DNA of 64,000 nt. Source: Arcobacter cloacae (GTDB lineage: Bacteria > Campylobacterota > Campylobacteria > Campylobacterales > Arcobacteraceae). This document shows, in pieces, positions 19,248-27,905 of this stretch. Below the pieces are notes generated by a model, which saw only the letters and a list, made by a program, of their open reading frames with translations, was not told where the DNA came from and searched no databases. A program made the translations under genes and the position numbers. The stretch spans positions 1,612,001 through 1,676,000 of the forward strand of contig NZ_CP053833.1 of the NCBI RefSeq assembly GCF_013201935.1. Reading direction: 5' to 3'. Every line of letters begins with the position of its first letter. The first letter of the stretch is position 1.

Positions 19248-19318
19248 TAAACTAAAAAAACATACTCTTTTCTCATAAAAATAATAATTATGAAGAAAGG
19301 TAAAAGGAGATGATTAGT

Positions 19319-20821
19319 ATGGAGGATTGGGTAACTATTCGTAATCTAAAAAAGAAAGATCCAAACTTAGGAACTAGAACAATTGCTTTAATGTTAGGTA
19401 TTAGTAGAAATACTGTAAAAAAAGCATTATTAAATGATGAATTACCTTTATATAACAGAGGTGAGAAAAAAATAAATGAAGCAGTTGAACCATTTATTGA
19501 TTTTATCAAAGAGTCATTTTTAAAGAAAAATTTAAAAGCTAGTAGAATTTTAAAAGATATAAAATCAAAAGGATATAGAGGAAGTCAATATGCTTTATAT
19601 GCTTACATAAGAGAAATTTTAAAACCAATAGCAAACGATGTAAGTAAAAATTCACCTCATGCTTACATGAGATATGAAACAAAACCAGCTGAACAGATGC
19701 AATATGATTGGAGTCCATATACAGTTACTATTGGTGAAAATCTTGTAAAAATAAATATACATCAAACAATCTTAGGATTTAGTAGATATAAATTTTATGA
19801 TGTAAGTTTAAATGTATCAGGAAGTGATGTATATACAGCATTAGAAGAGAGTTTTATCTTCTTTGGAGGAGTTTGTGAAAGAATACAAGTTGATAATGCA
19901 ACAGTATTTATAACAAATGCTTCTAAAGATAATCTTATTTGGAATCCAAGATTTTTATCATTGTGTGGATTGTATGGAATAAAACCAACAAGAAGTATGC
20001 CATCACATCCATGGAGTAAAGGTAAAGTTGAATCACCTTTTAGTTATCTTGAAACACATTTTATTAGTGGTAATGAATTTAAAAGCTTTGAAGATTTAAG
20101 AGAACGATTAAAACAATTTCAAGATGAGCATAATTTAGAGATTCATGGCACAACTAAACAAATTTCAAAAATACTCTTTGAAAAAGAGGAACAAAGTTTT
20201 TTAAAACCACTACCAATAAATCCAATAACTGGGGAATTAAAACGATATGTTGGATTTAAAGAAGAGTTTAGAAAGGCAAATTCTGAATGTTTAGTCTCTT
20301 ACAAAGGTAATAAATATTCAGTTCCACATTACTTTGCAAGTAAAGAGGTTTGGTTAAGAGTATTATATGGAACAACTTTGCAAATATACTCAAGTAAAAA
20401 TAAACTAATAGCAACTCATACAATTAGCCTTAAAAAAGGTGAAGTCCTTGTTAATAAAGAGCATTTCAATGGATATAGAAAAGAAAATCAGTTTGATTCA
20501 ATTGCAATTTCAATATCAAGACTTATAAAAAGATTTGCTAACTACATAAATATTCATAAATTCATTGAAAATATTAAAGTTCAAAAAAGAATTAGCCCAG
20601 CTTATCACCTTTATAAAATAGCAAACTTGTTTGAATACTACGATGAGGCTGATTGTATTATGGCAATGGAAGAAGCAATTAGTTTAAATATTTATAGCTT
20701 CTCTTTTATCAAAGGAACAATTACACATCAAACCAAGCCAAAAAATGAACAGTTAAATCTGTTTAATATCAAATTACCCCAAGCAAATATAAAAAGAGAT
20801 TTAGGAGATTATAAAATATGA
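19319..20821 (+). CDS. istA: IS21-family transposase IstA
   Basis: The 500-residue protein has an N-terminal helix-turn-helix (TIALMLGISRNTVKKAL, about 20-36). A DDE integrase core follows, with the first aspartate in MQYDWSPYTV, the second in IQVDNATVF and the glutamate in KGKVESPFSYLE. A C-terminal beta-barrel-like region follows. It cuts and joins the IS ends with help from IstB. I chose the ATG at 19319 because AAAGGAG is well spaced from it; the in-frame ATG at 19310 abuts that site. The stop overlaps istB by 4 nt (ATGA). Confidence 0.95.
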   Translation: MEDWVTIRNLKKKDPNLGTRTIALMLGISRNTVKKALLNDELPLYNRGEKKINEAVEPFIDFIKESFLKKNLKASRILKDIKSKGYRGSQYALYAYIREILKPIANDVSKNSPHAYMRYETKPAEQMQYDWSPYTVTIGENLVKINIHQTILGFSRYKFYDVSLNVSGSDVYTALEESFIFFGGVCERIQVDNATVFITNASKDNLIWNPRFLSLCGLYGIKPTRSMPSHPWSKGKVESPFSYLETHFISGNEFKSFEDLRERLKQFQDEHNLEIHGTTKQISKILFEKEEQSFLKPLPINPITGELKRYVGFKEEFRKANSECLVSYKGNKYSVPHYFASKEVWLRVLYGTTLQIYSSKNKLIATHTISLKKGEVLVNKEHFNGYRKENQFDSIAISISRLIKRFANYINIHKFIENIKVQKRISPAYHLYKIANLFEYYDEADCIMAMEEAISLNIYSFSFIKGTITHQTKPKNEQLNLFNIKLPQANIKRDLGDYKI

Positions 20822-21657
20822 GAAATAAAAATACTACAAACTTAAGAAACAGTGGACCAGTTAATTTAGAGAATGGTTCACTAAAAGCAAATATAGAGAG
20901 TTATTGTAAACTTTTATCTCTTTCATCAGTGGCAGATAATTATGAAAGTGCAGCACTTGATGCTGCTAAAGCAAAACTATCATATCAAGATTATCTGTAT
21001 AAACTATTGCAACAACAAATAGTTGATAGAGTAGATAGAAGTGTAAATGCTAGAATTAAAAAAGCAGGATTCAAATATATGGCAACTTTGGATGAGTTTG
21101 ATTTTAGCTTTCAACCTCAAATAGATGAAAAACTAATACGAGAATTAGCAACTCTAAGCTTTTTAGATAGTGCTACAAATGTACTTTTAGTTGGTGCTCC
21201 AGGAGTTGGAAAAACTCATCTTTCAATAGCATTAGGACTTGAAGCCACCAAACAAAGAAGAAGAGTAAAATTTATAAGTGCTGAAGATTTAACCAATGAA
21301 CTAATAGCTGCAAATCACTCTAATACTATAACAGATTATCTTGAAAGTATGAGTAGAATAGAGTTACTAATAATTGATGAAATTGGATACTTAGACCTTT
21401 CAAGAGAAGTAGCATCACTTTTTTTTAGACTTATTTCAAAGAGATATGAAAAATCTTCAACAATAATTACATCAAATAAAGAATTTCAAGAATGGGGACA
21501 GATATTTAATGATGATGTGATAGCAACAGCAATACTAGATAGACTTTTACATCATTCACATCCATTTTTAATAAATGGTCCAAGTTATAGAATGAAAGAT
21601 TTATTGCCAAAAAGTAAAAAGAAACAAAATTTAGAGAATAAAAATAACGAAATTTAA
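20818..21657 (+). CDS. istB: IS21-family helper ATPase IstB
   Basis: The 279-residue AAA+ protein has Walker A GAPGVGKTHLS at about residues 126-136 and Walker B LLIIDEIGYL near 182-191, with a sensor region SSTIITSNKEFQEWG. IstB bends target DNA and activates IstA. The first 40 residues include the usual IstB N-terminal helical domain. It is translationally coupled to istA through the ATGA overlap. Confidence 0.95.
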   Translation: MRNKNTTNLRNSGPVNLENGSLKANIESYCKLLSLSSVADNYESAALDAAKAKLSYQDYLYKLLQQQIVDRVDRSVNARIKKAGFKYMATLDEFDFSFQPQIDEKLIRELATLSFLDSATNVLLVGAPGVGKTHLSIALGLEATKQRRRVKFISAEDLTNELIAANHSNTITDYLESMSRIELLIIDEIGYLDLSREVASLFFRLISKRYEKSSTIITSNKEFQEWGQIFNDDVIATAILDRLLHHSHPFLINGPSYRMKDLLPKSKKKQNLENKNNEI

Positions 21658-21941: not shown

Positions 21942-22862
21942 TTATGTAGTCTTTGAAAAATACTCTTCTAAATTTGATTTTATAATTTTATTAAGTTCAT
22001 CAGGAGATATAATCATAATATGAGGTAAGTAACTTTGTATCAAAGGTATTATTTCCATAAAGTCAGTAATAAAAACTTCTATATCTATACTTTCATCTTC
22101 ATAAGTTTTTAAAACTCTTTGAGTCTGGTTGATAGGTTTTCGTAAAAAATATTTTGAAACTTTTTTATCTAAAAATAGTTCTATAGCAAAAGGTTTTACA
22201 TGTGGTTCAAAATAAGCATTTATAGCATTGTCAAAACCACTTATAATCTCTTCATCAAATTCAAACTCAATATCTTGTAGTTCTACTTCTTTGATACTGT
22301 TTAAATGGTATCTTCTAATCTCATTATATTCTAAATCATAATTTATAAGATACCAAAAGCTATCAAGATTAAGTATTTTCAGAGGATAGAGTTCTCTTTT
22401 TTTGTCATTGTATATACATTCTATTTTTGTTTTAGTTTTTATAGCATTTTTTACTTTTATTATGTCTGTTTGATTTTCTTCTATACTTTCAATAGATGGC
22501 AATTTATAAATACTATTTTTTAAACTATCTTCTAACTTTTCAAAAAGTTTTTCAGTATTAAAAGAAAGTTCTTCATCAGTAAATTTATCTTTACTTTTAT
22601 TTTTCAATATCGCTATTGTTGCCAATTCTTCACTATTTAATAAACTGCTTTGCAAAAATGGATATTTTGCACTAAAACACTTTTCACTATGATTATAATA
22701 AATTGTATCATTACCAAATAAAGGAATAATATACTCTTTAAAATCAAGTTGTATAATTCTATCCGTAGTATCAAATTGTTCAACCAATTTTTTTGTAGTA
22801 AGATTTTCTCCCTTTGAAAGTAATTCAAAAATATTTTTTATTCTATATGTTCTACTAATAAT
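21942..22862 (-). CDS. WYL-domain transcriptional regulator with no ordinary start codon
   Basis: The C-terminal part has the WYL signature (SFWYLINYDLEYNEIRRYHL, about residues 150-169) expected of ligand-sensing regulators. The N-terminal winged helix, reading RTYRIKNIFELLSKG and then LVEQFDTTDRIIQLD, continues upstream of the first conventional start (a TTG at 22787) for at least 23 codons. The only plausible starts there are ATT codons at 22862 and 22859, preceded by TAAGGGGA. An in-frame stop lies upstream near 22883. Either an ATT start is used or the original ATG has mutated. Full length would be about 306 residues. WYL regulators often control defence or DNA-repair genes; the target here is unknown. 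Confidence 0.75.
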   Translation of the reverse strand: MISRTYRIKNIFELLSKGENLTTKKLVEQFDTTDRIIQLDFKEYIIPLFGNDTIYYNHSEKCFSAKYPFLQSSLLNSEELATIAILKNKSKDKFTDEELSFNTEKLFEKLEDSLKNSIYKLPSIESIEENQTDIIKVKNAIKTKTKIECIYNDKKRELYPLKILNLDSFWYLINYDLEYNEIRRYHLNSIKEVELQDIEFEFDEEIISGFDNAINAYFEPHVKPFAIELFLDKKVSKYFLRKPINQTQRVLKTYEDESIDIEVFITDFMEIIPLIQSYLPHIMIISPDELNKIIKSNLEEYFSKTT

Positions 22863-22892
22863 GGTATATCCCCTTACTTTTAATAATTAAAA

Positions 22893-23090
22893 TAAGTATA
22901 ATTTAAAACTATATTCTTATTCCCTTATTTTTGTACATTTTTTCATCTGCAATATTTAATAATGTTTCCATATCTTCTGCATCTTTTGGATAAATACTAA
23001 CCCCTAAACTAAAAGAAAGTGGAATTGTTAGATTTTCATTATAAAGTAAAGGTGTTTTTTTTGAAATCTTTTCTATTCTTTTTAAAGTTT
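22893..23090. repeat. intact-side copy of the direct repeat that bounds the accessory block
   Basis: From TAAG at about 22893, through TTTAAAACTATATTCT at 22902-22917 (16 of 16 identical to 16513-16528), into the last codons of the cyclase gene, this stretch parallels 16502-16620. The other copy lacks about 80 nt and has scattered substitutions. The two copies are in the same orientation and enclose about 6.3 kb of accessory genes. Confidence 0.6.
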
Positions 23091-24147
23091 TATCTAAATA
23101 CTCTTCTGATTCATACTCTTCAAAAAGAATAACAAACTCATCTCCACCTATTCTTGCAATGATATCCTCTTCTCTAATAACGTTTGATAACACTTCTCCA
23201 ATATGTTTTAAAAGCATATCTCCCACATGATGTCCATATTCATCATTTACATTTTTGAATTTATTTAAATCAACAAAACATAAAGCAAAAGGTTTTTTCA
23301 GCTCTTTATTTTTTAAAATAAGTTCTTCTATTTTTTTTGTTAACATCAATCTATTCGGAAGCCCTGTTAAACTATCATGATTAACTGCATACTCTAATTC
23401 TGATTCTATCTTTTTTAAGTGTGTTATATCTTGACAAATAATAATATTTTCTGATTTATTTTTATCCAACTTAACAGGAATAACATCCGCATGAAAAAAG
23501 ATATCAATACCTTCTAAACTAACAGCTCTTAAAATATTACTAACTTCTGTAGATGAAATTTTGAGTTCTCGCGAAAAGAAAAATTTTGAGAAATGCTCAC
23601 CTATCATATTATTTTCATTCAATCCAAAAAATGAAATACAAGCTTTATTTACATCAGTAATAATTCCTTTTATATCAATATGAAAACAAATTAATTTTTG
23701 ATTTATTAAGTTAAAATAAATCTGATTATTTTGAATATTCTCTTTTTCATATTCATATTTTAAATTCTCTTGATTTATATTTTGTATCATTTTTGAATAA
23801 CTAAGAGAGTGTGAAGATTGTCTTGTAAACATTGCAATAAAAAGTTTTTCATTATCTTTAGTAATAAAAGTTTCAATATTAATATCATAAAAAATATCTT
23901 TTTTAAAAAGCATTGGAATATGTAAATAGTTTTTTTTATTTTTATACAATTCTTCAAGTTTTTCTTCTAAACCAACAAATTCCCAAAAAGAGTCTCTAAC
24001 ATCTTTATTTATTGCTAATTCATCTGAAGCACTCAAAAAATCTTTTAAATTATCTGTAAACTCAACTATTTTAAAATCTTTTTTAAATAAAACACAAGAG
24101 ATATTATATTTGTTACAAATAATTGGTAAAATAAAACTTTTTAGCAT
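22909..24147 (-). CDS. double-PAS GGDEF diguanylate cyclase of the GTPase operon
   Basis: The 412-residue cytoplasmic protein has a PAS-like N-terminal region (about 10-110), a second PAS domain (about 140-245) and a GGDEF domain (250-412). The active site is intact: GGDEF at 334-338, DLNKFKNVNDEYGHHVGD at 293-310, and a product-inhibition site RxxD at R325-D328, five residues before GGDEF. It should make c-di-GMP and be feedback-controlled. It starts 1 nt after the stop of the small GTPase gene, so it is the last gene of that operon and may be its output. Confidence 0.9.
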   Translation of the reverse strand: MLKSFILPIICNKYNISCVLFKKDFKIVEFTDNLKDFLSASDELAINKDVRDSFWEFVGLEEKLEELYKNKKNYLHIPMLFKKDIFYDINIETFITKDNEKLFIAMFTRQSSHSLSYSKMIQNINQENLKYEYEKENIQNNQIYFNLINQKLICFHIDIKGIITDVNKACISFFGLNENNMIGEHFSKFFFSRELKISSTEVSNILRAVSLEGIDIFFHADVIPVKLDKNKSENIIICQDITHLKKIESELEYAVNHDSLTGLPNRLMLTKKIEELILKNKELKKPFALCFVDLNKFKNVNDEYGHHVGDMLLKHIGEVLSNVIREEDIIARIGGDEFVILFEEYESEEYLDKTLKRIEKISKKTPLLYNENLTIPLSFSLGVSIYPKDAEDMETLLNIADEKMYKNKGIRI

Positions 24148-24148
24148 T

Positions 24149-24661
24149 TTATACCAATCTTTTTATTATTTCATTATTTAATATCTCAAATAATTCACTA
24201 ACACCATTATCATCTTTTGCTGAAGTTTTAAAAAGTGCAATAACATTTGAAGAAAGATTTCTAAAACTTTCTAACTCTATCTCATCATCAACTAAATCAC
24301 TTTTATTAAAAGCTATGCAAATAGGTAAATTACTTGCTGTTTTTTCACACAATTCTATATGCTCTTTTATAGAATTAATAGTATTTTCTCTTGTTAAATC
24401 AGCAACTATTATAAAACCTTTTGCTCCACTTAAGTAGTGAGATAATATTGGTTTAAAATCAGTTTTTCCTTCAATATCCCAAATCATCATTGTAGAATCA
24501 TAAGTTTTATCATTAACTAAAGTACTTAATAATTTTTTAGAAATGGCAACACCTATGCTACTTTTATATTCATCGCTAAAACTATTATCAACGTATCTTT
24601 TAATCAAGCTTGTTTTACCTACTCCAAAATCACCAACTAAAACAATTTTATAATTAAACAT
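24149..24661 (-). CDS. Rab/MglA-like small GTPase
   Basis: The 170-residue protein is a stand-alone Ras-superfamily GTPase. The P-loop GDFGVGKTS is at 10-18, the switch I region reads YKSSIGVAI, switch II reads WDIEGKTDF, NKSD is near 118-121 and TSAKD near 149. Two positions differ from active Rab proteins: the switch I threonine aligns with a serine, and the catalytic glutamine after DxxG aligns with lysine. Slow intrinsic hydrolysis or an external activating protein would fit. No C-terminal lipidation cysteine is present. It lies 9 nt downstream of the membrane/OmpA-like gene and 1 nt upstream of the cyclase gene. Confidence 0.9.
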   Translation of the reverse strand: MFNYKIVLVGDFGVGKTSLIKRYVDNSFSDEYKSSIGVAISKKLLSTLVNDKTYDSTMMIWDIEGKTDFKPILSHYLSGAKGFIIVADLTRENTINSIKEHIELCEKTASNLPICIAFNKSDLVDDEIELESFRNLSSNVIALFKTSAKDDNGVSELFEILNNEIIKRLV

Positions 24662-24670
24662 TATAAACCT

Positions 24671-26434
24671 TTATTTTTTCCATGAAAAAACTACCCTTCT
24701 TCCTTGTTCTGGATAATTTTTTTCATCTATATTTGCTGGAATTTCATTAATTCCTATATTAATTAACTTTTGAGATACATTACCTTTTAGTTTTAAATAT
24801 TTCATAATATTTTCTGCTCTTTCTTTTACTAAAATTGCATTTCTTTCAATAGTACCTGTGTAATCCCTAAAACCTTGTATTTCTAAAACTAAATCTTCAT
24901 CTAGCTTATGTAATAAATTTATTATATTTATAAGTTTATACTCTTGACTAGGTAAAATTAAAGAAGAATTCTGTTCAAAATAAATTATATCCTCTATATT
25001 TGGAGGAACTACTTGCACACTAAACTCTATGTTTTTTAAACCTTTAATCAAACTAAATTGTTCTTGTACATATTTTTTCTCTTTTTTACTAAAAACTTTT
25101 CCAAAAATTTTAGCATCAGGATAGTTATAGCTATACTCTATTCCATTACCCTCTTTTAGATTTAAAGCTAAAGTTAAATAAGTTATTTTATCATAAATAT
25201 CTTTTGGATTATCAAAAGAATCAACAACTTGAATATTATTTTCTAAACTTTTAATCTCTTTAATCTCTTTTAGATTTTTATATGCTAAATCCTTATAAAA
25301 AGAAAAAGGAACAACTCCATTTATTTTCATATGTTTATCTTTAACTTCTACATCTAATCTATATATAGTTAAAGCCGAATCTTTGTATAAAATCTCATTA
25401 GCTTTTTTTTCAAGATTATTATCAATAATATTATTATAAATAATATAAGTGATATAAGAAACAAACAAAATAGGAATTAAATATAATAAAGGATGTATTT
25501 TTTTACTATTTTCTTCATTATTTTTACTTATTAATTGAGATATAACTTCATAAAATTTCTCTTTTGGAATATTTTGCATATCTCCATTAAAATTCTTGAT
25601 TTCATCTGAATAAGTTGATACTAAAATAGATAATACTTTTCGAATACTATTAATAGTATTATTTGTAACAGCTCCATCTATTATAACTGCCAAATAACTA
25701 TATCCGCTTGATTCTAAAACTATCTTACTTCCACCATATTCAATAGTATTTATCTCTTGATGTTTTTCATTTTTATCTACCCAATCATTTACAAAACTAC
25801 GAATTGCTGTTAGCATAGATGCTATCATCTCTGGTTCATTTATAGGATTATCTTCATGCTCAATATGTGATAAAACAACACCTGTTTCTTTATGTATAAA
25901 AAAAACTGCTCTAATATTTGTTAATGCATTCTCTTTTAATAAAAGCTCTGTTTCACTAATACCATGATATTTTGCTTTAATTTTTCTTTTCAAAGTTTTA
26001 AAAGTTAAACCATTTCTAATTTGAAAATTTATAGAATTTATCATATCTTCAAAAGTTTTAGTCACATATCTTGTTATCATATTTCCAATTACTGGATATA
26101 AAGCATCAACTACTTCGTCTTTATGAGATTTAATCTGTTCTTTAATAGCAGTTGAAATAAGAGGAGCTAGTTGTTTAGTTACTTTTTCTTTCGATTCATC
26201 ATAGTTTCTATCAATTAGTTCTAATACAATAGGCGATAAAACATCAACCAATAATTTTTTATCTTTAGTATAACTTTTTTCTAAAATAGAGAAAATTAAA
26301 GGTGAAATTTTCTCTACTATTATTTTAGGATTTTTTAAATCATCTTTTAAATTATTTAGTTCTTCTTCAAGTTTAGATAAACTCTCTTGTTCTTCCTTTA
26401 ATAGAAGATTACGTAGTTTTTCTAAATCATTCAT
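24671..26434 (-). CDS. membrane protein with roadblock-like middle domain and OmpA-like C terminus
   Basis: In the 587-residue protein, residues 1-30 are coiled coil. Residues 37-130 contain repeated LSPIV/LAPLI/LYPVI-type helices. Residues about 172-275 form an alpha/beta domain (RAVFFIHKETGVVLSH, SSGYSYLAVIIDG) that resembles roadblock/longin-type GTPase partners. One transmembrane segment lies at about 314-333. The rest should be periplasmic, with BON-like stretches (350-480) and an OmpA/MotB peptidoglycan-binding domain (about 490-587; LVLEIQGFRDYTGTIERN, then QGRRVVFSW). The roadblock assignment is my reading of the fold pattern. The layout would place a GTPase-binding domain in the cytoplasm and a cell-wall anchor outside. 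Confidence 0.78.
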   Translation of the reverse strand: MNDLEKLRNLLLKEEQESLSKLEEELNNLKDDLKNPKIIVEKISPLIFSILEKSYTKDKKLLVDVLSPIVLELIDRNYDESKEKVTKQLAPLISTAIKEQIKSHKDEVVDALYPVIGNMITRYVTKTFEDMINSINFQIRNGLTFKTLKRKIKAKYHGISETELLLKENALTNIRAVFFIHKETGVVLSHIEHEDNPINEPEMIASMLTAIRSFVNDWVDKNEKHQEINTIEYGGSKIVLESSGYSYLAVIIDGAVTNNTINSIRKVLSILVSTYSDEIKNFNGDMQNIPKEKFYEVISQLISKNNEENSKKIHPLLYLIPILFVSYITYIIYNNIIDNNLEKKANEILYKDSALTIYRLDVEVKDKHMKINGVVPFSFYKDLAYKNLKEIKEIKSLENNIQVVDSFDNPKDIYDKITYLTLALNLKEGNGIEYSYNYPDAKIFGKVFSKKEKKYVQEQFSLIKGLKNIEFSVQVVPPNIEDIIYFEQNSSLILPSQEYKLINIINLLHKLDEDLVLEIQGFRDYTGTIERNAILVKERAENIMKYLKLKGNVSQKLINIGINEIPANIDEKNYPEQGRRVVFSWKK

Positions 26435-26451
26435 CTAAATTGATTACACAA

Positions 26452-27021
26452 CTAGTTATTTTGTACAGAGATAATCTGTTTTTCTAATTGATTACCTTTT
26501 AATCTCATTGCTGTTTCCATCATAATTTCAGCAGCATCATCTCTTGATAATTTTAAATCATTCAACTCTTGAAGTTTAAGTTCCATCATAATAAATAACT
26601 CTTCTTTTAAATTATTCATCTCTTCTTGTAAAGTGTTTTTATTTTCAAGTTGTTCTTTGTACAATTGCTCATGTTTTGCACTTAATTCATCATTTAAAAG
26701 TTCAATTGAATTTTGAATTCTTTTTTCTTGTTTTAACTCATTATCCCTAATATCTGTCATCTCTTCTTGATGTTGAATTGTTAAATTTTTAATTTTTTTA
26801 GATAATAGTTCAACTTCATTATCCAATCTTAGAGTAAAATCCTTTTGATTTTGCTCTAATCTATTTTTGATATCTTCTAAAGAACGTTTTATATCATTTT
26901 CAATTTTCTCAAATCGTTTATTTAACTCTCTTGTTTGAGAACCAAACAAAATTTCTCTTATTTGATCAACATTCCCCAACTGACCTATATCATTCTGTGT
27001 TTTTTGACTATTATCTTTCAT
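26452..27021 (-). CDS. coiled-coil protein, first gene of the GTPase operon
   Basis: The 189-residue protein is almost entirely charged alpha-helix, with no membrane segment. A short N-terminal block (VDQIREILFGSQTREL, about 18-33) precedes about 130 residues of heptad-rich coiled coil. The C-terminal tail (DDAAEIMMETAMRLKGNQ) may be a separate helix. Its stop is 17 nt before the start of the OmpA-like gene. A scaffold or adaptor role is plausible but not shown. The ribosome binding site AAAAAGGAAAAAA precedes the ATG. Confidence 0.75.
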   Translation of the reverse strand: MKDNSQKTQNDIGQLGNVDQIREILFGSQTRELNKRFEKIENDIKRSLEDIKNRLEQNQKDFTLRLDNEVELLSKKIKNLTIQHQEEMTDIRDNELKQEKRIQNSIELLNDELSAKHEQLYKEQLENKNTLQEEMNNLKEELFIMMELKLQELNDLKLSRDDAAEIMMETAMRLKGNQLEKQIISVQNN

Positions 27022-27081: not shown

Positions 27082-27792
27082 TTAAGCAATGTTTGTATAA
27101 ACAGCTTGAACATCATCATCATCTTCAAGTTTTTCTATTAACTTACCAATATCCTCTTGTTGAGCTTCTGTAAATACTTGTGGATTATTAGGAATTCTTT
27201 TTAATTCAGCTTTTGTTAAAGCTATTCCTAACTCTTCAAATTTTTGATTCATATTTCCAAAATCAGTATAATTTGCATAAGCTAGAACTATTCCCTCTTC
27301 TTCTTCGATTTCTTCAAGACCTGCATCAATTAACTCTAATTCTAACTCTTCAAGGTCAATATTTGCTGGTTTTGGAAATTCAAAAATCGCTTTTCTATCA
27401 AAGAAAAACTCTAAAGAACCTGTAGGAACTACTTGTCCACCTGTTTTGTTAAAATACATTTTCACATTTGCAACTGTTCTTGTATTATTATCTGTAGCTG
27501 TTTCTACAAAAACTAAAACTCCATGAGGACCTTTACCTTCAAAATTTACTTCTGAAAAATTAGCAGCATCTTTACCAGTTGCTCTTTTGATTGCTGCATC
27601 AATATTTGCTTTTGGCATATTTTCAGCTTTTGCATTTAAAATAGCTGTTCTAAGAGCCGAATTCATTTCAGGATCTGCAACACCATTTTTAGCTGCCATT
27701 TCAATTGCTTTTGCTAATTTTGGGAAAACTCTAGACATATTTCCCCATCTTTTCATTTTAGCTGCTTTTCTATATTCAAAGGCTCTACCCAT
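27082..27792 (-). CDS. yebC: YebC/PmpR family protein
   Basis: The 236-residue protein starts [16 protein letters not shown], the conserved YebC opening. The ATG at 27792 is preceded by GGAG; longer in-frame starts upstream would add an unrelated leader. Family-typical segments include [32 protein letters not shown] and [15 protein letters not shown]. The family has been described as transcriptional regulators and more recently as ribosome-associated translation factors, so the exact role here is open. It is a single-gene unit. Confidence 0.95.
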
Positions 27793-27828
27793 TAATAACT
27801 CCCAGTTAATTTTCAAATTTTTAGTAGG

Positions 27829-27834
27829 ATTATA
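27829..27834 (-). promoter_or_regulatory. -10 box for yebC
   Basis: The minus strand reads GCTATAATCC 37-42 nt upstream of the yebC start. The 113-nt gap to the M23 gene is a divergent promoter region. Confidence 0.5.
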
Positions 27835-27905
27835 GCAATTTTGTAATAACATTTTTATAAATTTTATAATTTTACATAATAATAGACAAATCAAAGGATA
27901 AAAAT

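Follow-up and report, generated by a model that had tools for sequence, protein, structure and literature searches.

Group 1 Rup proteins are prokaryotic small GTPases that are very similar to the eukaryotic Rab, Ran, Ras and Rho GTPases, and the gene neighbourhood in which they occur has been reported from sequence (Wuichet and Søgaard-Andersen, 2014; PMC4316618). In that account, none of 71 small Rup GTPases lies near an MglB gene, and no Rup GTPase had been characterised experimentally; a literature search, beyond whose reach most subscription papers lay, found no later study of the Group 1 Rup system. The present analysis concerns a four-gene set of Arcobacter cloacae, located at positions 22909-27021 of a 64,000-nucleotide (nt) stretch of contig NZ_CP053833.1, the whole of which is called the window below. 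Its genes encode a coiled-coil protein, a membrane protein of 587 amino acids (aa), a Rab-like GTPase and an output enzyme with a diguanylate cyclase domain. Judged by sequence features, the set is a member of the Group 1 Rup neighbourhood, and structural modelling supports a roadblock/longin fold for the cytoplasmic domain of its membrane protein.

The set corresponds feature by feature to that neighbourhood as the 2014 account describes it. The GTPase is a small, stand-alone Ras-superfamily protein whose 170 aa fall within the 150-240 aa of the group, and its G3 motif, WDIEGK, keeps the Asp and is devoid of the catalytic Gln. Next to it lie a coiled-coil gene, a gene for a protein in which a conserved domain, a transmembrane (TM) helix and an OmpA domain follow one another, and a gene for a GGDEF protein, in the place given in 2014 to an enzyme of cyclic di-guanosine monophosphate (c-di-GMP) or a histidine kinase. 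The original prediction for this locus, made from the DNA letters and their translations, had taken the combination to be undescribed, a view that does not survive this match to the reported neighbourhood. Its description of four adjacent genes was confirmed: four open reading frames (ORFs) lie on the minus strand with intergenic gaps of 17, 9 and 1 nt (Table 1).

A roadblock/longin fold had been proposed for the middle of the membrane protein, and the idea of a single system was made to depend on residues 172-275 adopting it. In a full-length AlphaFold2 model based on 17 sequences, the N-terminal half was of low confidence, and residues 161-280 formed a helix-strand-strand-helix-strand-strand-strand-helix. 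Because the N-terminal half was poor with so few sequences, residues 144-300 were modelled again with 78 sequences from several phyla (predicted local distance difference test score, 82.8; predicted template modelling score, 0.72). When this model was compared with the PDB using Foldseek, each of the best 50 matches was a roadblock fold, a longin fold or a longin-like adaptor fold, the top ones at probability 1.00 and E-values from 7.5e-5, the value obtained with MglB. The match list included MglB alone, the MglA-MglB complex, TRAPP, Mon1-Ccz1, Ragulator, CPLANE Fuzzy, AP sigma and Sec22b, many of which are small-GTPase regulators. The predicted core, strand-strand-helix-three strands-helix, agrees with solved roadblock and longin members; the model has a short helix before strand 1 and helices also after strand 5. 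The model and its PDB matches support the proposed fold at about residues 172-280. Roadblock and longin domains are related by circular permutation (PMC3521125); several longin matches had the lower root-mean-square deviation, and MglB stood near the top by E-value. Residues M207, A210, F214 and G284 were identical in all 95 homologues, and the near-invariant helix bearing M207, A210, I211, F214 and D217 (93-95 of 95) is a candidate contact face. The domain may bind and regulate the GTPase.

The GTPase matched Pfam Ras (E 9.4e-30), and its best solved relative in the PDB was Rab1A (E 3.3e-23). The nucleotide-binding motifs G1, G4 and G5 are conserved across the family; the G3 Asp is present in 85/85 members and the catalytic Gln is absent from 84 of them. 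In the A. cloacae genome, a single GTPase of this type was found and no canonical MglB (Robl_LC7) protein was matched. MglA, whose pairing with roadblock proteins the original prediction had cited, is not the nearest relative: the protein matches Rabs and keeps the G3 Asp, a residue absent from MglA.

Among 397 Campylobacterota genomes, full-length homologues of the 587-aa protein were found in 17, A. cloacae included, the remaining matches covering the OmpA end only or, once, a short stretch. The GTPase was present in the same 17 genomes. The gene order coiled-coil protein, membrane protein, GTPase was kept in all 16 other Campylobacterota loci, the coiled-coil gene lying directly upstream of the membrane-protein gene in each, and a cyclase gene came next in 14. 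A wider scan of GTDB species genomes gave 80 loci, most of them outside this phylum, from Desulfobacterota, Beta- and Gammaproteobacteria, Bacteroidota, Chlorobiota, one cyanobacterium, Acidobacteriota and Verrucomicrobia. In these loci, the coiled-coil gene was directly upstream of the membrane-protein gene in 68 of 74 testable cases, and the GTPase gene directly downstream of it in 65 of 71; the GTPase was followed by an ORF of output-enzyme size in 59 of 64. The original prediction had made its idea of one system depend on the genes being found together elsewhere. The neighbourhood survey found them together, and their co-occurrence within the phylum and the gene order kept across phyla bear out a single co-inherited system. 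By this comparison of genomes, the four genes occur together far beyond chance and are a conserved unit.

Several Desulfobacterota loci have the GTPase and output genes divergent from the rest. In L068, L069, L087 and L086, the coiled-coil/membrane-protein pair points away from the GTPase and from a gene that the output-enzyme profile matched; L086 has two GTPase genes, a hint of paired GTPases. An 18th GTPase match in Campylobacterota (locus L128, G314:C6), on a 10-kb contig of an assembly from the same family, was considered as a decaying Rup copy and set aside. On this contig, a Rab-like frame contains TAA/TAG in frame, and another ORF, furin-like and rich in Cys, is of eukaryotic appearance; none of the other three system genes is there. 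Because of these features and its small size, it is probably a ciliate contaminant.

The output enzyme matched Pfam GGDEF (E 4.4e-42), and, as predicted, it has an intact GGDEF active-site motif and an intact RxxD inhibition site (REEDIIARIGGDEF at residue 325). The predicted PAS-PAS-GGDEF architecture stood in part: one PAS domain (residues 155-242) and the GGDEF domain were recognised, whereas the supposed first PAS domain (1-130) was unrecognised by Pfam and is weakly PAS-like. The A. cloacae genome has 40 GGDEF matches. In the N-terminal region that this enzyme shares with its relatives, position 122 is Gln in 57 of 75 output proteins and Asn in ten, and this Gln is probably the invariant Gln described for output enzymes in the 2014 account. 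Behind the shared region the catalytic ends are GGDEF, GGDEF-EAL, histidine kinase, HD-GYP or class III cyclase, a variety as expected of an interchangeable effector. The output gene behind the Rup GTPase encodes a class III nucleotide cyclase in a cyanobacterium (L070, 8264-9277) and an HD-GYP protein in a gammaproteobacterial symbiont (L078, 8374-9894). No recognised PAS domain is present in the output modules of L056, L061 and L070. A roadblock/longin-like nature of the cyclase N-terminal region was considered and rejected (profile comparison probability, 0.7 per cent).

The periplasmic part of the membrane protein had been described as OmpA-like, and an OmpA domain is there (Pfam OmpA, E 3.7e-8; Pal template modelling score up to 0.82); it does not stand alone, as two BON domains precede it. 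The best fold match of the BON pair was the dual-BON lipid-binding protein DolP (E 1.7e-7). N532 and R539 occur in all 89 homologues covering the site and D524 in 66 of them; by their spacing, we take D524 and R539 to be the peptidoglycan-binding Asp and Arg of OmpA-like domains. Beyond BON and OmpA, neither Pfam nor fold matches gave a ligand-binding domain in this part, which is predicted to consist of a dual BON unit and a Pal-like peptidoglycan-binding domain.

The coiled-coil and membrane proteins both carry an LRxL(L/I)xG-type segment at the N-terminus. A position-specific scoring matrix (PSSM) built from the coiled-coil proteins only, and then scored on membrane-protein N-termini, reached p<0.01 in 17/30 of these versus 1/143 controls (0/30, 0/24, 0/29 and 1/60 in the four control sets). 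Because the motif was first spotted by eye, this test confirms it and does not discover it. The cyanobacterial member has three copies. The shared motif may mark a common binding partner of the two proteins. For the coiled-coil protein, Pfam also gave weak matches to apolipoprotein and FapA, which were dismissed as artefacts of its coiled coil.

Table 1. Features of the A. cloacae four-gene set, with positions in the window.
Feature	Position	Strand	Evidence
Coiled-coil cytoplasmic protein, 189 aa, first of the four genes	26452..27021	-	ORF; homologue conserved upstream of membrane-protein gene
LRxLLxG-type motif of coiled-coil protein, NVDQIREILFGSQ, residues 15-31	26929..26979	-	Motif comparison
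Membrane protein, 587 aa: N-terminal helical region, predicted roadblock/longin domain, TM helix, two BON domains, OmpA domain	24671..26434	-	Pfam, models, fold matches
LRxLLxG-type motif of membrane protein, MNDLEKLRNLLLKEEQE, residues 1-17	26384..26434	-	PSSM p=0.004
Predicted roadblock/longin domain, residues 172-280 (modelled as 144-300)	25595..25921	-	AlphaFold2 model and PDB fold matches
TM helix, residues 315-336	25427..25492	-	Hydropathy peak 1.83 at 315-333; helix 316-351 in model
BON domain 1, residues 340-404	25223..25417	-	Pfam BON E 0.0013, under curated cut-off; DolP/OsmY matches
BON domain 2, residues 410-475	25010..25207	-	Helix-strand-strand-helix-strand in model; dual-BON DolP match
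OmpA/Pal-type peptidoglycan-binding domain, residues 481-585, with D524, N532, R539	24680..24994	-	Pfam OmpA, Pal fold match
Stand-alone Rab-like GTPase, 170 aa, Group 1 Rup type	24149..24661	-	Pfam Ras, PDB match, G1/G4/G5 motifs
G3 motif WDIEGK: Asp62 present, Lys66 at catalytic Gln position	24464..24481	-	85-sequence comparison
Output enzyme, 412 aa: N-terminal Rup-associated region, PAS, GGDEF	22909..24147	-	Pfam, comparison with relatives
Gln122 codon, most conserved polar residue of shared N-terminal region	23782..23784	-	75 output proteins
GGDEF diguanylate cyclase domain, active site and RxxD inhibition site intact	22924..23382	-	Pfam, motif inspection

Promoter-like sites in the window showed no excess over shuffled sequence (37 versus 38.8), terminator-like sites numbered 2 versus 0.7 in shuffles, with neither at the end of the four-gene set, and no Rfam family was matched. 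The operon boundaries were therefore drawn from spacing and conservation. Upstream, yebC (27082-27894) directly adjoins the four genes in all six members of the genus that have them (L032-L036 included), and no yebC match was labelled beside the set in other families; this adjacency is a single conserved site within the genus. Downstream lies a gene for a WYL-domain regulator (21942-22883, minus strand; also given as 21942-22787), whose reading frame runs on upstream (IISRTYRIKNIFELLSKGENLTTKKL) and whose expected start is devoid of ATG, GTG or TTG, so that it either has a non-standard start or is damaged. Because flanking genes vary in relatives, the regulator was rejected as a member of the system. 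An IS21-type element (integrase-core transposase and IstB helper; 19310-21657, plus strand) is located near the same end.

We lean towards reading the set as a Group 1 Rup system that acts as a second-messenger device gated by its GTPase and held at the cell wall, which seems somewhat more probable than not. The 587-aa protein would span the inner membrane a single time. On the periplasmic side, peptidoglycan would be gripped by the Pal-like OmpA domain, with the two BON domains lying against membrane or wall; on the cytoplasmic side, the roadblock/longin domain would be the platform on which the Rab-like GTPase docks and is regulated. Given their common LRxLLxG motif, the coiled-coil protein and the membrane protein are probably either rivals for one partner site or joint occupants of it. 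The GTPase itself has no catalytic Gln; Q122, in the N-terminal region that output enzymes share, might take its place in trans, in which case the output enzyme would both read and end the GTP state. The nucleotide state of the GTPase would gate the cyclase, and c-di-GMP would be made where the complex is anchored. The protein contacts, any guanine nucleotide exchange or GTPase-activating role, what is sensed and which way the signal runs are all inferred, as are the sensing of place, switching of the GTPase and local c-di-GMP synthesis that the original prediction had put forward.

This device is favoured by the co-occurrence within the phylum, the gene order kept across phyla, the modelled fold with its GTPase-regulator matches, the DolP-like and Pal-like domains, the missing G3 Gln beside a conserved Gln122, the varied outputs and the shared motif. 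The distance matrices of the GTPase and membrane protein, which correlated at r=0.91 with shared species history uncontrolled, point the same way. Several observations weigh against it. Sequence profiles alone left the roadblock/longin link below significance: Fuz_longin_1 was found below threshold in 13 of 78 family members (best E 0.009), Robl_LC7 in two of the 78 at only E about 0.06, and a roadblock chain at E 0.22. AP sigma and Sec22b, both in the match list, show that such domains also occur outside GTPase regulation. Q122 is not strictly invariant, because Asn, Arg, Lys or Ser takes its place in 18 of 75 output proteins. The cyclase gene is missing beside two of the 16 Campylobacterota loci. 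These two loci, together with a coiled-coil gene that also follows yebC in the genus, would suit four genes that are merely co-located; this is highly improbable, as distant phyla, where other genes flank the set, show the four genes in this order and conservation of the neighbourhood is already recorded in the 2014 account. That a fold match alone is no proof of GTPase binding, with adaptor sigma and Sec22b among the matches, would fit a structural longin/profilin-like dimerisation module, the GTPase working only with the coiled-coil protein and cyclase. Perfect co-occurrence and adjacency of the GTPase gene, and an invariant helix that points to a conserved contact surface, make such a module improbable.

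In Pal and MotB-type proteins, OmpA domains that bind peptidoglycan act as static anchors. The membrane protein might likewise be mainly a positional anchor at a wall site such as the pole or septum, its roadblock/longin domain only recruiting a GTPase that acts as a localisation switch, as MglA does in Myxococcus, while the signal enters through PAS-type domains of the cyclase. The PAS domain of the A. cloacae enzyme and the lack of a further periplasmic ligand-binding domain in the searches above agree with this; yet the platform is retained in the three loci whose outputs have no recognised PAS domain, and we consider a mere anchor rather unlikely. A broader proposal is possible but inspires more doubt than confidence: in many phyla, Group 1 Rup would represent a bacterial pairing of Rab and longin/roadblock proteins, connected through the cell wall to second-messenger or kinase outputs that can be exchanged for one another. 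If such a pairing is real, the 2014 rule that roadblock partners belong to MglA-family GTPases only would be wrong, and the eukaryotic Rab-longin partnership would have a bacterial counterpart. The fold assignment bears on whether the archaeal/eukaryotic line alone gave rise to Rab-longin pairing. It also suggests a possible means for bacteria to tie c-di-GMP synthesis to a location on the cell wall.

Like MglA/MglB of Myxococcus and Thermus, the set joins a small GTPase to a protein with a roadblock fold, and MglB is among the best fold matches. It differs in that its GTPase is Rab/Ras-like, with the G3 Asp (Asp62) that sets it apart from the MglA type, in that the roadblock/longin domain is predicted inside a wall-anchored membrane protein without Robl_LC7-level similarity, and in that a second-messenger enzyme is encoded in the gene set. 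The actinobacterial conservon (CvnA-D), an analogy drawn in the 2014 account, is also a four-gene unit with a GTPase, a roadblock protein and a signalling enzyme; its GTPase is of the MglA type and its membrane component is a histidine kinase sensor, whereas in the present set the roadblock/longin-OmpA protein supplies the membrane part. In TRAPP, Mon1-Ccz1, Fuzzy-Inturned and Ragulator, a Rab-type GTPase likewise stands beside a roadblock/longin partner at a membrane, but the present protein is bacterial, single-pass and bound to the cell wall, with sequence homology to these regulators below threshold. The closest likeness is to Group 1 Rup itself, which has the same GTPase, coiled-coil protein, domain-TM-OmpA protein and output enzyme, probably with the same conserved N-terminal Gln. 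In the accessible part of the 2014 account, the outputs are a cyclase/phosphodiesterase or histidine kinase, Campylobacterota are not among the taxa named for Group 1, epsilonproteobacteria being listed only for Rup overall, and the domain of the membrane protein is one of unknown function. Beyond that description, the present analysis adds Campylobacterota members, the dual BON domains, the shared LRxLLxG motif, a wider output set that includes HD-GYP and class III cyclase proteins, and a predicted roadblock/longin fold that offers a concrete candidate regulator in place of the domain of unknown function.

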